Shown here piece after piece: positions 23,432-32,816 of a stretch of 64,000 nt of DNA. The notes beneath the pieces were generated by a model that searched no databases, was not told the DNA's origin, and saw only the letters and a program-made list of their open reading frames with translations. This DNA is from Actinomycetospora succinea (GTDB lineage: Bacteria; Actinomycetota; Actinomycetes; Mycobacteriales; Pseudonocardiaceae), in the NCBI RefSeq assembly GCF_004363095.1, contig NZ_SNYO01000002.1, positions 744,001 through 808,000 of the forward strand, in the 5' to 3' direction. The stretch's first letter is position 1. The number at the start of each line of letters is the position of its first letter. A program made the translations under genes and the position numbers.

Positions 23432-24192
23432 CGGCGGCCGCGCGCCTCGCCCCGCTGCTCGACGTCCCGCTGCCCGACGACCCGGGGGCGCCCTTCGTCG
23501 ACCTCGTCGAGGGCCGGCCCGGGTCGCGCGGGCGCATCCAGGACCTGTGGGAGTCCGGGGGCGGCGCCGGGTTCTACGACCGGCTGGTCGGGGCGGGCGA
23601 CCGCGTCCGCGACCGGGTCCCCGACGCCGCGCTCGGCCGGCTGTTCCGCGACTTCTACGGCGTCGTGCCGCGCCTCGACCTCGTCGGCGGCGAGACCGTC
23701 CTCGACCTCGCGTGCGGGCCCGGGACCCTGACCCGCCACCTCGCCGACGCCGTCGGGCCGGACGGCCTGGTGATCGGTGCGGACCTCTCCCCCGCGATGC
23801 TCACCCGGGCCGCGCGGGCGATCACGACGCCGAACACGGTGTTCGTGCGCGCCGACGCGATGGCGCTGCCGCTGCGCGACGCCTCCGTCGACGCGGTGTG
23901 CTGCTCGCTGCTCCTGCAGCTGGTCCCCGATCTCGACACCGCGCTCGCCGAGGTCCGGCGGGTCCTGCGTCCGGGCGGGCGGCTCGCCGCCGCCGTCCCC
24001 GCGCACGGGCGCGGGCCGTTCCGGGTGCTCACCGAGGCGCTGGCGCGGGGCGGTCAGGCGCGGCTGTTCGGTCGCGGCGAGCTCGCCGACGCCCTCGTGC
24101 GGCACGGCTTCGTGCGGGTCGGGACGCGCTGGGAGTCGGTCATGCAGATCGTGGACGCCGTCGCCCCGGGAGCATCGCCCCCGCGAGGGTGA
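23428..24192 (+). CDS. SAM-dependent methyltransferase (UbiE-like)
   Basis: A 254-residue class I methyltransferase. A ~85-residue N-terminal lead (with FYDRLVGAGDRVRDRV) precedes motif I, VLDLACGPGTLTRHLAD, then GADLSPAMLTRA and RRVLRPGGRLAAAVP (post-motif III). Typical of lipid-quinone or small-molecule methylases. Its start overlaps the WS/DGAT stop by 4 bp, so the two are translated together; its 3' end overlaps the convergent PAP2 gene by 53 bp. The substrate is probably a lipid or quinone (inference from context). Confidence 0.85.
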   Translation: MTAAARLAPLLDVPLPDDPGAPFVDLVEGRPGSRGRIQDLWESGGGAGFYDRLVGAGDRVRDRVPDAALGRLFRDFYGVVPRLDLVGGETVLDLACGPGTLTRHLADAVGPDGLVIGADLSPAMLTRAARAITTPNTVFVRADAMALPLRDASVDAVCCSLLLQLVPDLDTALAEVRRVLRPGGRLAAAVPAHGRGPFRVLTEALARGGQARLFGRGELADALVRHGFVRVGTRWESVMQIVDAVAPGASPPRG

Positions 24193-24799
24193 CGACGCCG
24201 CCCGTCGCGACCACGACGCCGACCGCGGCGAGGACGTCGCTGGGCCGGTGCCAGCCGGCGACCATCGTGGCCACGCCCGCGACCCCGGTGACCGCCACGG
24301 CGGCCAGGGCGGCGAGCGGGCGGAGCGCCCGGGGCACGACGAGCACCAGCGCCAGGCCGAGCGACGCCACGAGCGTGACGTGCCCGCTGGGCAGCGAGTT
24401 GCCCTCGAGCGAGTCGGGCCGGACGAGGCCGGCCTTGAGCGCCTGGGTCACCAGCTGCGCGCCGAGCACCAGCGCCACGACCCCCACCGCGCGGTCACCC
24501 CGCCCGCGGGCGAGGGCCACGCCGGCCAGCGCGACCACGGCGAGCGCGACCGTCGGCACCCCGACGAGCTCGAGGACGCCGAGCCCTTCGCTGCGCAGCC
24601 CGACGCCGGTGGCCGCCTCGAGGACGGCGTCGTCGAGGGCCCGCCCGGTCGGGTCGAGGACGGCGAGGACGTAGGCGCCGATCACGGTGGCGGCCCCGAG
24701 GAGCACCGCGAGCACCGCGGCGACCCGTGGTGTCGACCCGGTGCGCCGGGGCGGCGCGTCGAGCAGGGGCACCGTGGGTGCGGCGGCGAGCGGGATCAT
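24140..24799 (-). CDS. PAP2-type membrane phosphatase
   Basis: A 219-residue membrane protein of about six helices. The PAP2 signature is split as KAGLVRP, then NSLPSGHVTL and AGWHRPSDVLAA. The last motif has the catalytic His and Asp, but the usual SR pair before it is replaced by MVA, so activity is uncertain. Members dephosphorylate phosphatidic acid or prenyl diphosphates; next to WS/DGAT it could supply diacylglycerol. The ATG at 24799 (GGAG 5 bases upstream) is preferred over the GTG at 24808. Confidence 0.8.
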   Translation of the reverse strand: MIPLAAAPTVPLLDAPPRRTGSTPRVAAVLAVLLGAATVIGAYVLAVLDPTGRALDDAVLEAATGVGLRSEGLGVLELVGVPTVALAVVALAGVALARGRGDRAVGVVALVLGAQLVTQALKAGLVRPDSLEGNSLPSGHVTLVASLGLALVLVVPRALRPLAALAAVAVTGVAGVATMVAGWHRPSDVLAAVGVVVATGGVVTLAGAMLPGRRRPRSA

Positions 24800-24868
24800 G
24801 CGCTCCACGTTCCGGGCGGGCGGTGTGGCCGGGCTGACGGCGGCCTGTGGGGAGGCTGAGAACGCCGA

Positions 24869-24920: not shown

Positions 24921-25562
24921 CTAGGCGCGGTAGGCCTCCACGGCGTGGCCGAAGACCACGATGTTGTCCTCGTAGCTGCGGACGTCGCTGTCGAACTCGC
25001 CGCCGCAGGTGATCAGCCGCAGCTCCGGGCCCGTGGTCGGGCCGTAGACCTGCACGGTCGGGAAGGCGTTCTTCGACACCTCGTCGACGCGGTCCACCGC
25101 GTAGACGACCGTGACGCCGTCGGTGCGCTCGATGAGCACCTGGTCGCCGGCCGCGACGTCGGCGAGACGGGCGAACCCGCCGTCGACGCCGTGGTAGTTG
25201 ACGTGCGAGGCGTAGATCGCCGGACCGGCCTCGCCGGGGGCCGCCCCGCCGCGGTAGTGGCCGACGGTCGTGGCGTCCCCGGGAACCTCCAGGCGACGGT
25301 CCTCGGTCTGCCCCAGCTCGGAGAGCTGCCGGGTGTCGACGCCGATCGACGGGATCCGCAGGTTCGCGGTGCCGGCGGCGTCGAGGGGCAGCGTGACCTC
25401 CGTGCGCTGGGCCGGCAGCTCGACGCTGGCCGGGCCGGTGCGCTGGACGAGGTCACCCGAGAGGTAGGCCGCCACCGCGAGCAGCGCGATGACGATGACG
25501 ATGCCGATCGTGACGCGGGTGGTGCCGCGGGCACCGGGCTTCTTCTCCGTCGTGGCAGCCAT
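24921..25562 (-). CDS. Class F-like sortase 1
   Basis: A 213-residue membrane-anchored transpeptidase: short cytoplasmic start, one transmembrane helix (about 17-34), then the sortase domain. Catalytic His120 is in IYASHVNYHG and Cys186 in LRLITCGG; Arg195 in DVRSYEDN is the nearest Arg. It should cleave a C-terminal sorting signal and attach the protein to the wall. It is 5 bp downstream of the Excalibur-protein gene in the same direction, so that protein is the prime substrate candidate. The start at 25562 has AGGG 9 bases upstream. Confidence 0.9.
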   Translation of the reverse strand: MAATTEKKPGARGTTRVTIGIVIVIALLAVAAYLSGDLVQRTGPASVELPAQRTEVTLPLDAAGTANLRIPSIGVDTRQLSELGQTEDRRLEVPGDATTVGHYRGGAAPGEAGPAIYASHVNYHGVDGGFARLADVAAGDQVLIERTDGVTVVYAVDRVDEVSKNAFPTVQVYGPTTGPELRLITCGGEFDSDVRSYEDNIVVFGHAVEAYRA

Positions 25563-25567
25563 GGTGA

Positions 25568-26794
25568 TCAGCCCTGCCGCGCGTAGCGACGGACGAGGAC
25601 CAGGCCGGTGGCGCCGAGGCCGCCGACCGCGCTCGCCGCGAGGGCGATCTCGACGGGCGAGGCGCCGGAGGAGGTGCTGCCGTCGCCGGTCGAGACACCG
25701 CCCTCGGGGTAGCTGGCGTAGTCGACCTCGTCGTTGTCGCTGTTCCACTCGCAGGCCTCGCCGTCGTCGTCACGGTCGAGACGGAACGGGTCCGAGCGGT
25801 CCCAGTCGAGGATGGCGTTGGCCTCGTCGTAGGTCAGCTCGTCGCAATCGACGTCGTAGCGGTGGGTCCAGTAGGCGCCCCACCACTCGTTCGAGACGTA
25901 CGTGGTGTTGAAGTTGATCGTGGTGTTGTGCTCGATCACGGTCGGGCAGAGGTGCTTGACGACGTCACGCAGGTGGTCGAGGCAGACGTGCACGTCGGTC
26001 GTGTCCAGACCGCGGCAGAAGCCCTGCAGCTGGGTGCTGAGCTTGTCGAGACCGGACGTGCCGGTGGGGAACTGCAGCTGCGAGATCGCGTTCAGGCAGG
26101 CGTCGTTGACGTTGTCGAAGTTCCCGTCCGCATCGGGCTTCGGGATGTTCGTCGGCAGGCCCGGGAGCTTGATCGGGTTGGCGCCGGCGTCCGGGAGCAG
26201 GTCGCTGATGACGTCCTGGATCGGCTTGACGCCGTTCTCGACGATCGCGGCGGACGGCGTGGTCGGCGCCGTGGTGGCGTCGGTCGACTCCTGGTCCGCG
26301 TTCTCCTGGTCCGAGTTCTCCTGGTCCGAGTTCTCCTGGTCCGCGTTCTCCTGGCCGGCGTTCGGGACGACCGGGCTCGGGGCGACGGCCGGGGCACGGT
26401 CGGCGACGTTGCTGTCGTTCGCGCCGCCGGTGGTCGAGCCGGTGTCGGCGCTGCCGTTGTCGACGCTGCCGGTCTCGGGGACGACGGAGGTCGAGCCGCC
26501 CGACGTCGACGGAGTCGTCGTCGTGGGGGCCGTCGTCGTGGTGGTGTCCGACGCGGCGTCGGAGGCGCCGCCCGCGCTCCCGGAGCCGGAGCCGTCGGTG
26601 ATCGCGGTCGAGCCCGAGGACTCGCCGTCGTCGCAGACGCCCGCGATCCAGGTGTAATCCTGCGCCTCGCAGGTGTCCTTGTCGTCGATGCCGGCGACGG
26701 GCGCCGCGAGGGCGAGCCCCGGGGCGATCACCGCAAGTCCCACACAGCCGGCCAGCACGACCGCGGCGCTGCGGCTGCTCCGTCGACCCCTCAT
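25568..26794 (-). CDS. Secreted Excalibur-domain surface protein with QENxD repeats
   Basis: A 408-residue exported protein. Signal peptide ends at about residue 31 (GLALAAP). A low-complexity Ser/Thr/Gly region follows, then pentapeptide repeats QENADQENSDQENSD (five units), a Cys-containing middle region, and an Excalibur Ca-binding domain (DVDCDELTYDEANAI, DRDDDGEACEW). At the end YPEGGVSTGDGS precedes a hydrophobic helix and a basic tail RRYARQG: the layout of a wall-sorting signal without LPXTG. It is upstream of sortase 1 in one operon. AGGGGAG precedes the ATG at 26794. Confidence 0.85.
   Translation of the reverse strand: MRGRRSSRSAAVVLAGCVGLAVIAPGLALAAPVAGIDDKDTCEAQDYTWIAGVCDDGESSGSTAITDGSGSGSAGGASDAASDTTTTTAPTTTTPSTSGGSTSVVPETGSVDNGSADTGSTTGGANDSNVADRAPAVAPSPVVPNAGQENADQENSDQENSDQENADQESTDATTAPTTPSAAIVENGVKPIQDVISDLLPDAGANPIKLPGLPTNIPKPDADGNFDNVNDACLNAISQLQFPTGTSGLDKLSTQLQGFCRGLDTTDVHVCLDHLRDVVKHLCPTVIEHNTTINFNTTYVSNEWWGAYWTHRYDVDCDELTYDEANAILDWDRSDPFRLDRDDDGEACEWNSDNDEVDYASYPEGGVSTGDGSTSSGASPVEIALAASAVGGLGATGLVLVRRYARQG
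26289..26363 (-). repeat. 15-bp tandem repeat, five units
   Basis: Five 15-bp units (type TCCTGGTCCGAGTTC, with GA/GC variation; the fifth differs at a few bases) lie in frame in the Excalibur protein and encode the QENxD pentapeptides. Likely to vary in copy number between strains. Confidence 0.85.
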
Positions 26795-27244
26795 CGCTAC
26801 TCCCCTTCGAGCGCTGTTGGCCGAGTACGTTCGGCCGTTCGCTTGACGCTTCGCACGGAGAGTCACCGCTGTTACCAGCCCTTGCGGATCTCATGCCCGA
26901 TGGCGGAGAGACCACTCGAATGGTTGACGCGTCGCGGTCCTCGCTCCGGGAACGCAGGGCTCCCAGGCCGTGACCCGGCCGTGACCACTGCAGATGCGAA
27001 CGCCGCGGGATCTCCACCCCAGCCGTCGTGGGGTCTCGCCCACTCTCTCCACGACAGCACGCCCGTCCCGGCACTCCCGTGCACGATCGGGACGCGGCGA
27101 TCACGGTCCGTCGCCGAGCCATCGACATCGCTCACGCGGTCTTGACCAGCGCGTACCCATCGGTAGTCCGCGGCGTTAGGACGATCGGGGGCGCCGCCGG
27201 GCGACGACCCCGACACATCGGGCGAGCACGGATCGGGTCGGGAC
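26795..27244. other. Divergent promoter region of the sortase/Excalibur cluster
   Basis: No gene is evident in these 450 bp. GTCAC-N4-GTTAC at 26862-26875 is a direct GTNAC repeat similar to MtrA-type sites (inference) and faces the minus-strand Excalibur gene. TTGACC (27142-27147) with TAGTCC (27164-27169), 16-bp spacer, is a plausible -35/-10 for the plus-strand Excalibur gene at 27245. Confidence 0.5.
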
Positions 27245-27904
27245 ATGGTGCACGGACGTCGACGCGTCGCAGGCGCGCTGATCGGGCTGGTGGCGGCGGG
27301 GATGATCGGCACGGCCGGGGTCGCCGTGGCGGACGACGGTGACTCCGGTGGCGGGGGCAGCCTCGGCGACCTCATCGGCGGACTCGTCGACACCGTCACC
27401 GGGATCATCCCGGGCACGGACGACCTGCCCGAGATCCCCGAGGTGCCGCTCCCGACCGGAACGTCGACGAGCACCCCGACGTCGAGCTCCTCGGCGCCGC
27501 CGTCGCACTCCTACGACCACCACGAGCACTACCACCCGTGGGTCCCGCCGGTCGTCTACGGCCCGGGGAGCACGTACTACACCTACGTGGCGCCGGCACG
27601 CCCCGCGCACCTGCTGAACTGCTACGACTTCGCCGACCCGGCCGACGCGCAGGCCGTGCTCATCGCCGACCCGTCGGACCCGAACAACCTCGACGGCGAC
27701 AACGACGGCCGGGCCTGCGAGTGGGGCGTCGGTGGGCCGCGGGACTACCGCGGCTACCCGGTCGGCGGCATCGCGGCCGGCGACGGGTCCGACAGCGGCC
27801 CGACGATCGGCCAGCTGATCGCCCTGGGCTTCCTGGGGATCGGCGCGGGCGCCGGGGTCGTGCGGGGCGGGCAGCTCGTGGCCGCCCGCCGGGAGAACGC
27901 CTGA
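27245..27904 (+). CDS. Secreted Excalibur-domain surface protein 2
   Basis: A 219-residue exported protein with a signal peptide (RRRVAGALIGLVAAGMIGTA, cleavage after VAVA), a Ser/Thr-rich linker, a His/Tyr/Pro segment (YDHHEHYHPW) and an Excalibur domain (LLNCYDFADPADAQAV, DGDNDGRACEW). The end has YPVGGIAAGDGS, then a hydrophobic helix and a basic tail, parallel to the protein at 25568. It is followed after 1 bp by sortase 2, so enzyme and likely substrate are co-expressed. Confidence 0.85.
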   Translation: MVHGRRRVAGALIGLVAAGMIGTAGVAVADDGDSGGGGSLGDLIGGLVDTVTGIIPGTDDLPEIPEVPLPTGTSTSTPTSSSSAPPSHSYDHHEHYHPWVPPVVYGPGSTYYTYVAPARPAHLLNCYDFADPADAQAVLIADPSDPNNLDGDNDGRACEWGVGGPRDYRGYPVGGIAAGDGSDSGPTIGQLIALGFLGIGAGAGVVRGGQLVAARRENA

Positions 27905-27905
27905 C

Positions 27906-28571
27906 GTGGCGGCTCAGGAGGCACCGCCCGTCGAGTCGGGCGAGAAGGGCGTCCTCGAGCGGGCGACCGGCAAGCTGACGGCCCTGATCCTCGCCGTCCT
28001 GGCCGTCGGCGTGCTCGTCGCGCTGTTCACCGGGGACAGCGGTGACGAGGGCCCGCGCGCCGTCTCGCTGCCGCCCGCGGAACGGGCGGCCGTCACCATC
28101 CCGCTCGCCGCGGCGCAGATGACCGGCATCGACGCCCCGTCGATCGGGCTCGCCTCCGAGGACACGACGAGCCTCGGCCTGCGGGACGACAACTCGCTCG
28201 ACGTCCCGCGGAGCGCGTCCACGGTCGGCTGGTACGCGAACGGCGCCAGCCCCGGCACGGTCGGCCCCGCGGTGCTCGCCGCGCACGTCAACTTCCGCGG
28301 CGAGGCGGGCGCCTTCGCGCGGCTCGGGGAGCTGGCGCCGGGCGCGACCGTCGAGGTCCACCGGGACGATGACACGACCGCGGTGTTCAGCGTCGACCGC
28401 GTCGAGCGGGTCGCGAAGGACGCGTTCCCCACCGAGGCCGTCTACGCGCCCACCGCGGACAGCGAGATCCGGCTGATCACCTGCGGCGGGGTGTTCGACG
28501 AGCGCACGCGCAGCTACGAGGACAACATCGTCGTCTTCGGTCACCTCACCGAGGCCTACCGCCCGCTCTGA
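27906..28571 (+). CDS. Class F-like sortase 2
   Basis: A 221-residue sortase with one N-terminal transmembrane helix (about 24-42). His127 is in LAAHVNFRG and Cys193 in IRLITCGG; Arg200 and Arg202 follow in FDERTRSYEDN. Close paralog of sortase 3 (28646) and more distant from sortase 1. It begins 1 bp after the Excalibur gene, so they form an operon. The GTG start is given by this spacing. Confidence 0.9.
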   Translation: MAAQEAPPVESGEKGVLERATGKLTALILAVLAVGVLVALFTGDSGDEGPRAVSLPPAERAAVTIPLAAAQMTGIDAPSIGLASEDTTSLGLRDDNSLDVPRSASTVGWYANGASPGTVGPAVLAAHVNFRGEAGAFARLGELAPGATVEVHRDDDTTAVFSVDRVERVAKDAFPTEAVYAPTADSEIRLITCGGVFDERTRSYEDNIVVFGHLTEAYRPL

Positions 28572-28645
28572 TCGTCCGAACGAACCTCACCGCCACCCGC
28601 GCGGCGACGTGAACTCGACCGACCCGGAGGGGCATCCTCGATCGG

Positions 28646-29260
28646 GTGACCGGACGTCTCACCGCCTTCGTCCTCGCCCTGCTGGCGATCGGTGTGCTCG
28701 TCGCGGTGTTCAGCGGCAGCGGTGACCAGACCCCGCCGCCCCCGACCCTGGCGCCCGGCCAGCGGGAGTCGGTGCCGATGCCGATGGCGCCGGCCGACAT
28801 CGCCGCCATCGACATCCCCGCGATCGGGCTGTCGACCGACGACACGACCGACCTCGGCCTGCGTGCCGACAACTCCCTCGACGTCCCGCGCCGCGCGTCC
28901 ACGGTCGGCTGGTACGAGGAGAGCGCCAGCCCCGGCGCGGTCGGCCCCGCGGTCCTCGCGGCGCACGTCAACCTCCGCGGCGACCACGGAGCGTTCGCCC
29001 GTATCGGGCTGATGGCGCCCGGTCAGACCGTCGAGGTGCACCGCGACGACGACACCACCGCGGTGTTCACCGTCGATCGCGTCGACCAGGTCGCGAAGGA
29101 CGCCTTCCCCACGCAGGCCGTCTACGCGCCCACCCCGGACAGCCAGATCCGGCTGATCACCTGCGGCGGCGCGTTCGACCACCGCGCGATCAGCTACGAG
29201 GACAACATCGTCGTCTACGGCCACCTGACCAGCGCCTACCGCGAGGGGAAGGCCGACTAG
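28646..29260 (+). CDS. Class F-like sortase 3
   Basis: A 204-residue sortase, near-duplicate of sortase 2 through DDTTAVFxVDRV, KDAFPTxAVYAPT and LITCGG. His107 and Cys173 are present; the Arg before SYEDN found in sortases 1 and 2 is Ile here, and Arg180 (FDHRAIS) is the only nearby Arg. One N-terminal transmembrane helix. The GTG start lacks a well-spaced ribosome site (GGAGGGG lies ~14 bases upstream), so the start could be misjudged. A tandem duplication is the simplest origin. Confidence 0.88.
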   Translation: MTGRLTAFVLALLAIGVLVAVFSGSGDQTPPPPTLAPGQRESVPMPMAPADIAAIDIPAIGLSTDDTTDLGLRADNSLDVPRRASTVGWYEESASPGAVGPAVLAAHVNLRGDHGAFARIGLMAPGQTVEVHRDDDTTAVFTVDRVDQVAKDAFPTQAVYAPTPDSQIRLITCGGAFDHRAISYEDNIVVYGHLTSAYREGKAD

Positions 29261-29346: not shown

Positions 29347-31371
29347 TCAGGGACGAGAGGCGCTCAGGTCGTACACGGTGCGCCCTCCGACGTCGATCGG
29401 CGTGAAGTTCCCCTCGATCCAGGTACGGATCTCACCGCTCGTCCCCCGTGCGCCGGGACCGCCGTTCCGGGGGAGATCGTCACGGGTCGTCCCCCCGCCG
29501 GGGCCACCGCCCTCGACGTAGTAGCGCACCTGGCCCGACGCGATCGCGGCCTGGAACTCGGCGAGGGTCGGCGCCGGATCGCTGCCCATGAAGCCGCCCA
29601 TCGCCATCACCGGCACGCCGCTCGCGAGCTGGAGCGACGCGGCGCTCTGCGCGCCCGTCGTGGCCGCCGCCCATCGCGTCCCGGCGCTCTGGAGCAGGGC
29701 CACGACCTGCGGCGACGGGGTCTCTCCTTCCGGACCACCCATCCCGCCGGCCCGTGCCCGGTCGCCGCCGTCGCGTCGGTCGCCGGGCATCCCCCCGGGG
29801 CCGCCCATGCCTCCGCCGGGGCCGGCGCCGACGATCGAGCCCTGGTGCGGGGTCGCCGCGGTCTGAGCGGCGAACGCTGTCGAGCCGCCGAGCACCGCGA
29901 CCAGCGCGGCGACGACGCCGGCCACCGTCGCGGCCCGGCCCCACCGGACCGCCGGGGCGAGCACCGCGACCGTCCCGACGATCCCGGCGACCAGCAGCAC
30001 CCAGCGCGCCCAGGGCAGCCAGTCGTGCTGCGTGAGGATCACCGCGCTCCAGGCGGCCGTGCCCGCGACGACCACGGCGAGCACGATCCGCGCGCCGAGC
30101 GCGTCGCGGCGCCGCCACAGGACCGAGGCGCCGACCGCCGTGGTCAGCGCGATCCCCGGCGCCAGCGCGACGGCGTAGTAGGGGTGGATGATCCCGCTCA
30201 TCGCGCTGAAGACCACCGCGTGCACGAGCGTCCAGGTGCCGCCGAGGATCAGCAGCGCGCGGGTGCGGTCGGTGCGCGGAGCGCGGCGCAGGAGCCAGAG
30301 CGCGGCCACGAGCAGGACCAGCGCGGCCGGGAGCAGCCACGACGCCTGGCCCGAGAACTCGGACGTGAACAGGCGCTGCACGCCCGGCGAGCCGCCGAAG
30401 CCACCGCCGCCGGGGCCGCCGCCCATACCGCCCGGGCCGGCCATGCCGCCGGGAGGGCCGCCGGCGGGCATTCCCCCGGGCGTGCCACCGCCGCCGGGTC
30501 CGCCGCGGCCGCCGCCCTCGTCGCCCAGGATGCGGCCCAGCCCGTTGTAGCCGAGCGCGAGCTCGAGCAGCGAGTTGGTCGTGGACCCGCCGATGTAGGG
30601 CCGCGACGAGGCCGGCCAGAGCTCGACGAGCGCGACGTACCAGCCCGCCGAGACGATCATCGCGGCGCCGCCGGCGAGGAGGTCGCCGATCCGGCGGCGC
30701 AGCCGCGACGGCGCGCCGACGAGCACGGCGAGCGCCAGCGCCGGCACGACGAGCAGCACCTGCAGCTGCTTGGTGAGGAAGCCCAGGCCGACGAGCGCGC
30801 CGGTCGCGACCAGCCACCACGTGCCGGCGCGCCGGCCGGCGGCGTCGATCGCGCGGGTCGTCGTGTACGTCGCGGCGACCATCGTCAGCACGAGCATCGC
30901 GTCCGGGTTGTTGAACCGGAACATCAGCACGGCGACGGGCGTCGCCGCGAGCAGCGCGCCGGCCGCGAGGGCCGTGCGCGGGCCCGACCAGCGCCGCACC
31001 ACGAGGTAGAGCAGGCCGACCGACGCGACGCCCATGAGCGCCTGCGGGACGAGCATCGACCAGCTCGAGAACCCGAAGATCCGCCCGGACAGCGCCATGA
31101 CCCACAGCGAGGCCGGCGGCTTGTCGACGGTGATCAGGCCCGGCGCGTCGAGCGCGCCGAACAACCACGCCTTCGGCGACTGCGTCCCGGCCTGCACGGC
31201 GGCCGCGTAGAAGGAGTTCGCCCAGCCCGAGGCGCCGAGGTTCCACAGGTACGTGACGGCGGTGGCGCCGAGCAGGGCGAGCAGCGCCGGGCGCACCCAG
31301 CGCGGGTCCCCGGTCGCGGCGGGCGGCGGGGCCGGGGACGCGGCGACGTCGGGGGCGGTCGCGGTGCTCAT
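29347..31371 (-). CDS. GT39-type membrane glycosyltransferase (YkcB-like), copy 1
   Basis: A 674-residue polytopic GT-C enzyme that probably moves a sugar from a polyprenyl phosphate to a surface acceptor. Shared family marks: WANSFYAAAVQAGTQSPKAW, ITVDKPPASLWVMALSGR, MFRFNNPDAMLVL and SRPYIGGSTTNS. A long extracytoplasmic Gly/Met/Pro-rich insertion (GGMPAGGPPGGMAGPGGMGG) follows GYNGLGRILGDEG; a second lies before the soluble C-terminal domain ending VGGRTVYDLS. Third gene of an operon with a second GT39 enzyme and a GT2-GtrA protein, which likely makes and flips the lipid donor. Confidence 0.88.
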   Translation of the reverse strand: MSTATAPDVAASPAPPPAATGDPRWVRPALLALLGATAVTYLWNLGASGWANSFYAAAVQAGTQSPKAWLFGALDAPGLITVDKPPASLWVMALSGRIFGFSSWSMLVPQALMGVASVGLLYLVVRRWSGPRTALAAGALLAATPVAVLMFRFNNPDAMLVLTMVAATYTTTRAIDAAGRRAGTWWLVATGALVGLGFLTKQLQVLLVVPALALAVLVGAPSRLRRRIGDLLAGGAAMIVSAGWYVALVELWPASSRPYIGGSTTNSLLELALGYNGLGRILGDEGGGRGGPGGGGTPGGMPAGGPPGGMAGPGGMGGGPGGGGFGGSPGVQRLFTSEFSGQASWLLPAALVLLVAALWLLRRAPRTDRTRALLILGGTWTLVHAVVFSAMSGIIHPYYAVALAPGIALTTAVGASVLWRRRDALGARIVLAVVVAGTAAWSAVILTQHDWLPWARWVLLVAGIVGTVAVLAPAVRWGRAATVAGVVAALVAVLGGSTAFAAQTAATPHQGSIVGAGPGGGMGGPGGMPGDRRDGGDRARAGGMGGPEGETPSPQVVALLQSAGTRWAAATTGAQSAASLQLASGVPVMAMGGFMGSDPAPTLAEFQAAIASGQVRYYVEGGGPGGGTTRDDLPRNGGPGARGTSGEIRTWIEGNFTPIDVGGRTVYDLSASRP

Positions 31372-31489: not shown

Positions 31490-32746
31490 TCACGCGCGCT
31501 GGCGGCGCGGGTGGAAGACCCAGGCGCGGTAGGCGACGAAGCGCAGGAGGGTCGCGACGAGGTTGGCGACGATCAGCACGGCGAGCTCGACGGCGTGCGA
31601 GGCCGCCGGGGCGAGGACGCCGAGCAGGGCCAGCGAGCCGGACGTCAGCACCAGTCCGAGACCGAACACCACGAGGCCCTCGACCTGGCTGCGGCCGGCG
31701 TGGCGGCGCCCGCGGATGCCGAAGGTCAGGCGGCGGTTGGCCGCGGTGTTCGCGACGGCCGTGATCACGAGCGCCAGCAGGTTCGACGGCTGCGGCCCGA
31801 GCACGCCCCGGAAGAGCGTGTAGAGCAGCAGGAACGCGAGCGTCGAGATCACGCCGATCGCGGCGAAGCGCACCATCTGGCCGGTCAGGCCCGGGGTCAC
31901 GCCGGCCATCTCGTCCGGCGACGGCTCCGCGGCCAGGGGCTCGCGGCCGAACTCCTCGCGCAGCCGGGCCACCGGCAGCGCGCCGGTCGCGAGCGCGTGC
32001 CCGACGCGGGCGACGCCCTTGAGGTCGGCGATCGCGGTGGAGACGACGTCGACGCGCGAGTCCGGGTCGTCGACCCAGTCGACGGGGACCTCGTGGATCC
32101 GCAGGCCCGAGCGCTCGGCGAGCACCAGGAGCTCGGTGTCGAAGAACCACCCGGTGTCCTCGACCAGCGGCAGCAGCCGGCGGGCGACGTCGGCGCGGAT
32201 CGCCTTGAACCCGCACTGCGCGTCGGAGAACCGCGCCCGCAGCGTCCCGCGCAGCAGCACGTTGTAGCAGCGCGAGATCACCTCCCGCTTCACGCCGCGC
32301 ACCACCCGCGAGGTCGGCGCGAGCCGGGAGCCGATCGCGAGGTCGGAGTGCCCGGAGATCAGCGGGGCGACCAGCGGGAACAGGGCGTTGAGGTCGGTCG
32401 AGAGGTCGACGTCCATGTAGGCGAGCACCGGCGCGTCCGACGCCGACCACACCGTGCGCAGGGCGCGCCCGCGGCCCTTCTCGTCGAGGTGCACGACGGC
32501 GACCTCGGCGAACTCGTCGGCCAGCGCGTCGGCGACGGCCAGCGTGGTGTCGGTGCTGGCGTTGTCCGCGACCGTGATCCGGAAGGCGTAGGGGAAGTTC
32601 TCGGTGAGGTGGCGGTGCAGCCGCCGGACGCACGGGCCGAGGTCGCGCTCCTCGTTGTGGACGGGGACGACGACGTCGAGCACGGCGCCTCCGGTCGCCT
32701 CGACGGGAGCGGCGAAGGGGGCGCGGAGCGGGGTCGCTGCGGTCAT
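31490..32746 (-). CDS. GT2 glycosyltransferase fused to GtrA domain
   Basis: A 418-residue fusion. Residues 20-260 are a GT-A family 2 enzyme of the polyprenyl-phosphate sugar synthase type (VVPVHNEERDLGPCVR, ADNASTDTT, AYMDVDLSTDL with the Asp cluster, DAQCGFKAIR). Residues about 290-415 are a four-helix GtrA-like domain (MVRFAAIGVISTLAFLLLYT, NRRLTFGIRG), a presumed flippase for the polyprenyl-linked sugar. It sits between two GT39 transferases that would use such a donor. The ATG at 32746 has no strong ribosome site. Confidence 0.9.
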   Translation of the reverse strand: MTAATPLRAPFAAPVEATGGAVLDVVVPVHNEERDLGPCVRRLHRHLTENFPYAFRITVADNASTDTTLAVADALADEFAEVAVVHLDEKGRGRALRTVWSASDAPVLAYMDVDLSTDLNALFPLVAPLISGHSDLAIGSRLAPTSRVVRGVKREVISRCYNVLLRGTLRARFSDAQCGFKAIRADVARRLLPLVEDTGWFFDTELLVLAERSGLRIHEVPVDWVDDPDSRVDVVSTAIADLKGVARVGHALATGALPVARLREEFGREPLAAEPSPDEMAGVTPGLTGQMVRFAAIGVISTLAFLLLYTLFRGVLGPQPSNLLALVITAVANTAANRRLTFGIRGRRHAGRSQVEGLVVFGLGLVLTSGSLALLGVLAPAASHAVELAVLIVANLVATLLRFVAYRAWVFHPRRQRA

Positions 32747-32816
32747 GATCGCAGCGTCGGAGCCGTCCGTGGACGGGTCGTGTGCCGAACCTGTGGCTGC
32801 GCTGTGGGCCTCCACG

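Follow-up and report, generated by a model that had tools for sequence, protein, structure and literature searches.

Class F sortases (NCBIfam model NF033748), exemplified by SrtF of C. acnes and SrtF1 to SrtF4 of Actinoplanes, and the C-terminal signal that NCBIfam calls the GVDTG sorting domain (NF058571, GVDTG_CTERM) are the described systems closest to the one considered here. We analyzed a 64,000-nucleotide stretch of the Actinomycetospora succinea genome (assembly GCF_004363095.1, contig NZ_SNYO01000002.1, positions 744,001 to 808,000; hereafter, the window), in which positions 24921 to 29260 encode three sortases and two proteins with Excalibur-like regions, here called Excalibur-1 and Excalibur-2. 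The three enzymes keep the His, the Cys, and presumably the beta8 Asn of class F, and both Excalibur proteins end in the order of motif, helix, and basic tail that NF058571 describes; Excalibur-1 passes that model and Excalibur-2 does not. The window module is of a kind already named in the family database, with one of its two signals divergent.

In the portions of the sources that were available, no function is designated for class F, an Asn replaces an Arg in its actinobacterial members, and two genes of the class are located in biosynthetic clusters (PMC6998099); sorting signals are listed for classes A to E and none for class F (PMC5148588). The signal given for SrtF of C. acnes is LPQTG, whereas the window enzymes stand beside a P-x-G-G-type motif. 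Class E sortases with the LAXTG signal of chaplins are also actinobacterial and non-LPXTG but differ in enzyme class and motif (PMC5148588). In Actinoplanes missouriensis, AMIS_11010 and AMIS_36440 lie beside srtF1 and srtF4, have a signal peptide, a helix, and a basic tail, and are possible substrates according to the authors, who in the available text report no sortase pentapeptide (PMC13251363). Compared by description only, they are like the window proteins in these three features and in adjoining a class F sortase. A search of the open-access literature, with subscription journals outside it, returned no account of a GVDTG-type signal (GVDTG, GVETG, GGVETG, GAPETG, GGVATG) with a sortase, nothing relevant on sortases with Excalibur, and none on sortases with DUF4397, as judged from the listed records; within that literature, this signal seems to be recorded chiefly in the family database.

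Two divergent units of putative substrate and sortase

The module consists of two divergent substrate-sortase units, situated between genes for a PAP2 phosphatase and a PMT-like mannosyltransferase, with the following features.

24921-25562, minus strand: sortase 1, class F-like, partner of Excalibur-1 (PF04203 E-value 2.7e-22; NF033748 156.7 bits)
25568-26794, minus strand: Excalibur-1, with a signal peptide-like start, long low-complexity linker, Excalibur-like loop, and sorting signal (NF058571 30.2 bits)
25571-25711, minus strand: C-terminal signal of Excalibur-1, consisting of YPEGGVSTGDGS (25676-25711), a hydrophobic helix, and an RRYARQG tail, read from the sequence; conserved in the window and four orthologues, unlike the linker
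25745-25846, minus strand: Excalibur-like calcium-loop region of Excalibur-1, CDEL...LDRDDDGEACEW (signature match; no Pfam listing at E-value ≤0.1)
27245-27904, plus strand: Excalibur-2, with a signal peptide-like start, low-complexity linker, Excalibur loop, and sorting signal (PF05901 17.9 bits)
27617-27724, plus strand: Excalibur region of Excalibur-2, NCYDF...LDGDNDGRACEW (signature plus sub-cut-off PF05901 match)
27755-27901, plus strand: C-terminal signal of Excalibur-2, consisting of YPVGGIAAGDGS (27755-27790), a helix, and a basic tail, read from the sequence; an Ala-before-Gly variant
27906-28571, plus strand: sortase 2, class F, partner of Excalibur-2, with the His codon at 28284-28286 and the Cys codon at 28482-28484 (PF04203 E-value 2.3e-20; NF033748 167.4 bits)
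28646-29260, plus strand: sortase 3, class F-like, tandem duplicate of sortase 2 (PF04203 E-value 5.6e-21; NF033748 165 bits)

All of the features named in a first-pass annotation of this DNA, three sortases and two Excalibur proteins, are present, and each Excalibur gene does lie directly upstream of a class F-like sortase gene. A gap of 5 bp separates Excalibur-1 from sortase 1, and one of 1 bp separates Excalibur-2 from sortase 2; sortase 3 comes 74 bp after sortase 2. We take the start of sortase 1 to be the ATG at 25562, 5 bp past the Excalibur-1 stop (the open reading frame [ORF] list has a longer form from 25748). For Excalibur-1, the ATG at 26794 is preferred over the listed 26866, which is less likely, because AGGGGAG lies upstream of the former and its N terminus is common to four relatives.

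Both Excalibur proteins share the C-terminal layout YPxGG[VI]x[TA]GDGS, hydrophobic helix, basic tail. The earlier proposal that this layout is the signal fits both proteins but needs trimming: the part that is conserved reads P-x-G-[GA]-[VPAI]-x-[TA]-G, which GDGS commonly but not necessarily follows, and the helix and basic tail, present in both, are missing from many relatives. A strict form of the motif (P.GG[VIT].[TAS]G within the C-terminal 85 residues) occurs in 2 of the 264 script-listed window ORFs of at least 80 amino acids, and the two are Excalibur-1 and Excalibur-2. A pattern search for LP.TG, LA.TG, and NP[QK]T found none in either protein, as the annotation had said of LPXTG and LAXTG. 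Excalibur-1 scores 30.2 bits against NF058571 (cut-off 29), or 35.3 bits in the genome search. The signal was also suggested to belong to a dedicated anchoring system, which its association with sortases supports, but it is not new, having been named by NCBIfam. The motif of the Excalibur-2 orthologues reads GG[VI]AAGDG[ST]; two of these orthologues have no NF058571 match at an E-value of ≤0.05. The Ala-type motif also occurs in locus L007 of the source genome and in several Geodermatophilaceae. We infer that Excalibur-2 works like a GVDTG-domain member though it is not filed as one.

The label Excalibur itself rests on the DxDxDGxxCE signature, which both proteins have, but neither reaches the PF05901 cut-off of 22 bits: Excalibur-2 scores 17.9 bits, and Excalibur-1 has no match at an E-value of ≤0.1. 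They are probably secreted, calcium-binding proteins, and their Thr/Ser-rich linkers could conceivably be glycosylated.

Class F is the best family for all three sortases, with no other class above 43 bits. Sortase 2 alone is formally a class F member, because sortases 1 and 3 fall 9 and 1 bits under the cut-off of 166. His127, Cys193, and Asn207 (sortase 2 numbering) are present in all three, and Asn207 presumably corresponds to the Asn that replaces the beta8 Arg of actinobacterial class F. The beta8 region has no conserved Arg (at R-S-Y, Arg is present in sortases 1 and 2, with Ile in its place in sortase 3); the missing Arg was considered as an oddity of sortase 3 and rejected, since the replacement is stated for actinobacterial class F in the available part of PMC6998099. 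The fourth residue ahead of the Cys is Arg in every one of the genome's 12 class F-like sortases and in all 81 alignment rows (78 of 79 sortase stretches, with fragment L151 left out, plus the three window sortases); only the 12-enzyme count is unbiased, because the rows were picked by patterns demanding Arg and His. An AlphaFold2 model of sortase 2 (mean predicted local distance difference test score [pLDDT] of 88.8, confident in the domain) is a sortase beta-barrel that matches sortases of several classes, best 5utt_A (A. oris SrtA; template modeling score 0.62 by target, E-value 1.1e-9). By sequence, sortase 2 retrieved no PDB chain at an E-value of ≤0.01; searching with a profile built from the 12 class F-like sortases retrieved one, a class D sortase.

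The nearest named matches of the sortases come from Actinomycetospora. The divergent pair of units, Excalibur-1 with sortase 1 and Excalibur-2 with sortase 2, recurs in A. cinnamomea, A. lemnae, an Actinomycetospora metagenome-assembled genome, and A. lutea. Across these four and the window, the linker diverges, unlike the signal peptide, the Excalibur loop, and the sorting signal, which are all conserved; sortase 1 is 91% identical to its A. lutea orthologue over 162 columns. Signal, sortases, their pairing, and the conservation of that pairing are all properties of the sequences as they stand. Sortase 3 was seen only in A. lutea among the four relatives. In a quick tree (44 of 117 inner branches under 80), the three window sortases and their orthologues form one supported clade, in which sortase 3 pairs with the third A. 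lutea sortase within the clade of sortase 2, to which the sortases of Excalibur-1 are sister; sortase 3 is thus a duplication and not a third system.

The flanking genes, all on the minus strand, encode the PAP2 phosphatase (24140-24808), a PMT_2/YkcB-like mannosyltransferase (29347-31371), and a GT2-GtrA/DPMS enzyme (31490-32815). Similar-looking flanking genes occur in some relatives, as judged by eye.

Association of the signal with class F sortases

The source genome (6.47 Mb in 23 contigs) encodes 13 sortase domains, one of class E (L029) and 12 class F-like, 9 of which are over the class F cut-off. Eight of the 12 adjoin a motif gene, one is the tandem sortase 3, two are fusions, and one lacks the Cys. 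All six over-cut-off NF058571 matches in this genome adjoin class F sortases. The fusions (L033 on G000:C11 and L036 on G000:C1) are single proteins that combine DUF4397, a GG[TV]xAG motif (VPRGGTEAGLGG and TPNGGVPAGYGG), and a class F sortase, and they are possible self-substrates. In the twelfth sortase (L041, G000:C8:106954-107412), LITAGG replaces LITCGG, changing the catalytic Cys to Ala, and no convincing motif gene was found within 1.5 kb on each side (3.3 kb examined); its same-genus relative in L231 retains the Cys and is accompanied by motif genes. Directly before another class F sortase lies a gene for a secreted-looking protein that ends in VPSGGVDTGN and a stop codon (L039:416-1324, G000:C2, about 235.9 to 236.8 kb), the motif here being without helix or tail.

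The annotation had suggested examining how signal and sortase co-occur. We did this in 80 Actinomycetota genomes, the source genome included, with E-value limits of 0.001 for NF058571 and 1e-10 for class F sortases. NF058571 was found in 9 genomes and class F sortases in 20, and all 9 are among the 20 (hypergeometric P of 7e-7, or 2.9e-6 for 8 among 19 of 79 genomes when the source genome is left out, both ignoring the kinship of genomes). The motif was not found to be common apart from sortases. Of 22 matches (6 in the source genome), 18 lie 170 to 901 bp from a class F sortase domain, and these include every match that covers the motif, 12 of them outside the source genome. The other four start at profile positions 10, 12, 17, and 17 and cover helix and tail but not the motif, because their alignments begin at position 10 or later. 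None of 14 control genomes had an NF058571 match at an E-value of ≤0.001. At an E-value of ≤10, 10 of the 14 matched, none over the cut-off, so weak NF058571 matches carry little meaning.

A signal with and without a membrane helix

Within the Pseudonocardiaceae, 47 of 60 genomes have class F sortases at an E-value of ≤1e-20. We examined 102 loci among the matches listed, 96 over the cut-off and outside the source genome and 6 weaker. A motif gene lies upstream of the sortase in 81, 2 are fusions, and 1 is unreadable. In 49 of the 81 upstream genes, a helix follows the motif (a hydropathy rule, 15-residue mean of ≥1.3, and not a trained predictor); the other 32 stop 4 to 15 residues after it, with ends such as PKGGIETGFGATAA, PKGGVETGFGGTAQI, and PVGGVETGGGDLG at the very C terminus. 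These 32 genes span 25 genomes and 21 genus codes by hand count. The pattern P-x-G-[GA]-[VPAI]-x-[TA]-G is found in 47/49 helix-bearing and 30/32 helix-less rows. For L202, L209, and L210, the script's first motif match lies upstream and the real motif is a later one. Judged from these alignments, the motif and not the helix is the constant part of the signal.

Of the 32 helix-less proteins, 30 have a hydrophobic stretch close to the N terminus, internal in one case (L195); the weak rows without it are L180 (86 amino acids) and L199 (113 amino acids). L259, L260, and L265 look like lipoproteins. Further motif genes without a helix are situated downstream of, or second to, sortases in L121, L160, L173, L174, L177, L194, and L198, and others are found in Pseudonocardia kujensis, Amycolatopsis palatopharyngis, A. 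coloradensis, A. thermalba, Crossiella, and Labedaea. At an E-value of ≤0.01, NF058571 matches 36/49 helix-bearing and 4/32 helix-less proteins, and of five helix-less relatives compared with it, two match positions 1 to 15 and 2 to 15 only, below the cut-off, and three do not match. A single loose-motif match is no evidence, because 17 of 682 ORFs more than 1.5 kb from a sortase carry the loose motif, the form used in this census, in their last 85 residues. Another background count, 113/1422, was not used; it is inflated, with the real neighbours of L088 to L167 still included.

The Excalibur signature occurs in 18 of 56 script-kept motif-bearing neighbours, the two window proteins included. 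Most of the 32 helix-less proteins have no listed family; the domains that are listed comprise four Excalibur, one VWA, one PET hydrolase-like, and three "choice-of-anchor P." The name of the choice-of-anchor families refers to the swapping of anchoring tails, and their presence fits an anchoring role. Three helix-less proteins match the IglI model (best E-value, 1.4e-5). The PET hydrolase-like protein (L217:3155-4405, minus strand; bis(hydroxyethyl) terephthalate hydrolase-like, NCBIfam E-value 5.9e-83) ends in PIGAPETGDRGLTEH and is encoded beside a class F sortase.

A lipobox-like N terminus was found by a simple pattern rule, not a trained predictor, in 58 of 101 census class F sortases (L168 to L269), and many of these enzymes may be lipid-anchored rather than membrane-spanning. 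The lipobox occurs in 26/32 sortases with helix-less and 23/49 with helix-bearing substrates (Fisher P of 0.0025; the rows are related, and kinship is ignored), and substrate tail type clusters on the sortase tree. We cautiously favor the view that Pseudonocardiaceae class F sortases read P-x-G-[GA]-[VPA]-[EQDA]-[TA]-G without a membrane helix, that helix-less substrates, the L039 protein of the source genome among them, would be secreted in free form and then caught by sortases dedicated to them, often with a lipid anchor, and that substrate and sortase have fused in other lineages. One Rhodococcus ORF (L120:1-1350, cut by the contig start) joins a substrate, PRGGVDTGDGS, a helix, a basic stretch, a second lipobox helix, and a class F sortase, an arrangement that is topologically consistent by eye.

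Proposed mechanism, alternatives, and implications

We consider it very probable that the locus is a class F sortase display module for the two Excalibur proteins, a function suggested by gene layout and by the association described above. Both proteins would be exported by way of an N-terminal signal peptide and retained in the membrane by the C-terminal helix and basic tail, so that the P-x-G-G-[VI]-x-[TA]-G motif would be offered to the adjoining sortase. If cleavage follows the pattern of LPXT|G, the sortase Cys would attack the carbonyl before the conserved Gly (GGVST|G and GGIAA|G), and the cleaved protein would be passed to an amino group, putatively of a cell wall precursor. The predicted outcome is a calcium-binding Excalibur domain fixed to the wall on a long flexible stalk. 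Sortase 1 would serve Excalibur-1, and sortase 2 with its duplicate sortase 3 would serve Excalibur-2.

Several observations weigh against this module. Excalibur-2 has no NF058571 match at an E-value of ≤0.1, falling short of the 29-bit cut-off, and a profile of 44 Pseudonocardiaceae tails finds it only at an E-value of 0.077 over 4,999 ORF tails. NF058571 has no match at an E-value of ≤0.001 in 11 of the 20 genomes with class F sortases, and 18 of the 102 census loci have no upstream motif gene, at least three of which (L173, L174, and L194) have one downstream. An Excalibur protein elsewhere in the source genome (L007:1468-2202, G000:C15; PF05901 E-value 4.6e-11 in two stretches) has AYPVGGVEAGDGS plus a helix, and its signal scores 22.3 bits, with no sortase match on its contig; the pairing of signal and sortase is therefore not obligatory. 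Some helix-bearing neighbours weakly match LAETG/LAVTG-type surface protein families. The AlphaFold2 model of a natural DUF4397-motif-sortase fusion (L167) gives the motif a pLDDT below 50, which is uninformative either way. From the available parts of the literature, C. acnes SrtF is reported to use LPQTG (PMC7451113), and A. missouriensis has four class F sortases whose roles are described as unknown and a quadruple mutant in which no phenotype was seen (PMC13251363).

The same data bear on other explanations. The Excalibur proteins might be plain tail-anchored membrane proteins in which the Gly-rich motif is a spacer, the sortases acting on other targets. Helix and basic tail would suffice for membrane retention, and the cleavage proposed above is itself an inference, but a spacer does not account for the 32 of 81 upstream genes that have no helix and yet keep the motif at the C terminus, for the motif in the DUF4397-sortase fusions, or for all 18 motif-covering NF058571 matches adjoining class F sortases; we regard this explanation as very unlikely. 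Slightly less likely still is a pilus-like arrangement in which the sortases link one Excalibur protein to another, by polymerization or cross-linking, instead of attaching each separately to the wall. With two substrates and three sortases, one of them duplicated, the locus does generally resemble a pilus cluster, yet Pfam at an E-value of ≤0.1 lists no pilin-type or structural domain besides the weak Excalibur match, the linkers are of low complexity and diverge freely, and the sortases are best matched by class F, with class C at 15.3 bits or less.

Processing of the tails by another sorting protease, a rhombosortase acting on GlyGly-CTERM-like signals or an exosortase, seems the least probable of all. 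It is in general terms suggested by the Gly-Gly motif with helix and basic tail, and two sub-threshold rhombosortase matches (53.5 and 23.1 bits; cut-off 84) exist in the source genome. Both, however, lie on other contigs, the model also gives matches below the cut-off in 14/14 control genomes, no exosortase match was found at an E-value of ≤0.001, and the neighbours in the examined loci are class F sortases. The class F display module remains the reading we prefer.

Soil actinobacteria have many class F sortases, to which the available portions of the literature covered assign no role and one signal, the LPQTG of C. acnes. With a motif that tracks these enzymes closely, it becomes possible to list substrates, to test knock-outs, and to set up assays in vitro. 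The surprise lies in the forms that lack the helix or are fused, which are located outside the window. If helix-less substrates are real, the recognition part of a sorting signal would be separable from its retention part, and sorting would proceed without the retention helix and tail that are held to be standard. Such enzymes would also provide a natural secreted-substrate sortase for protein ligation.

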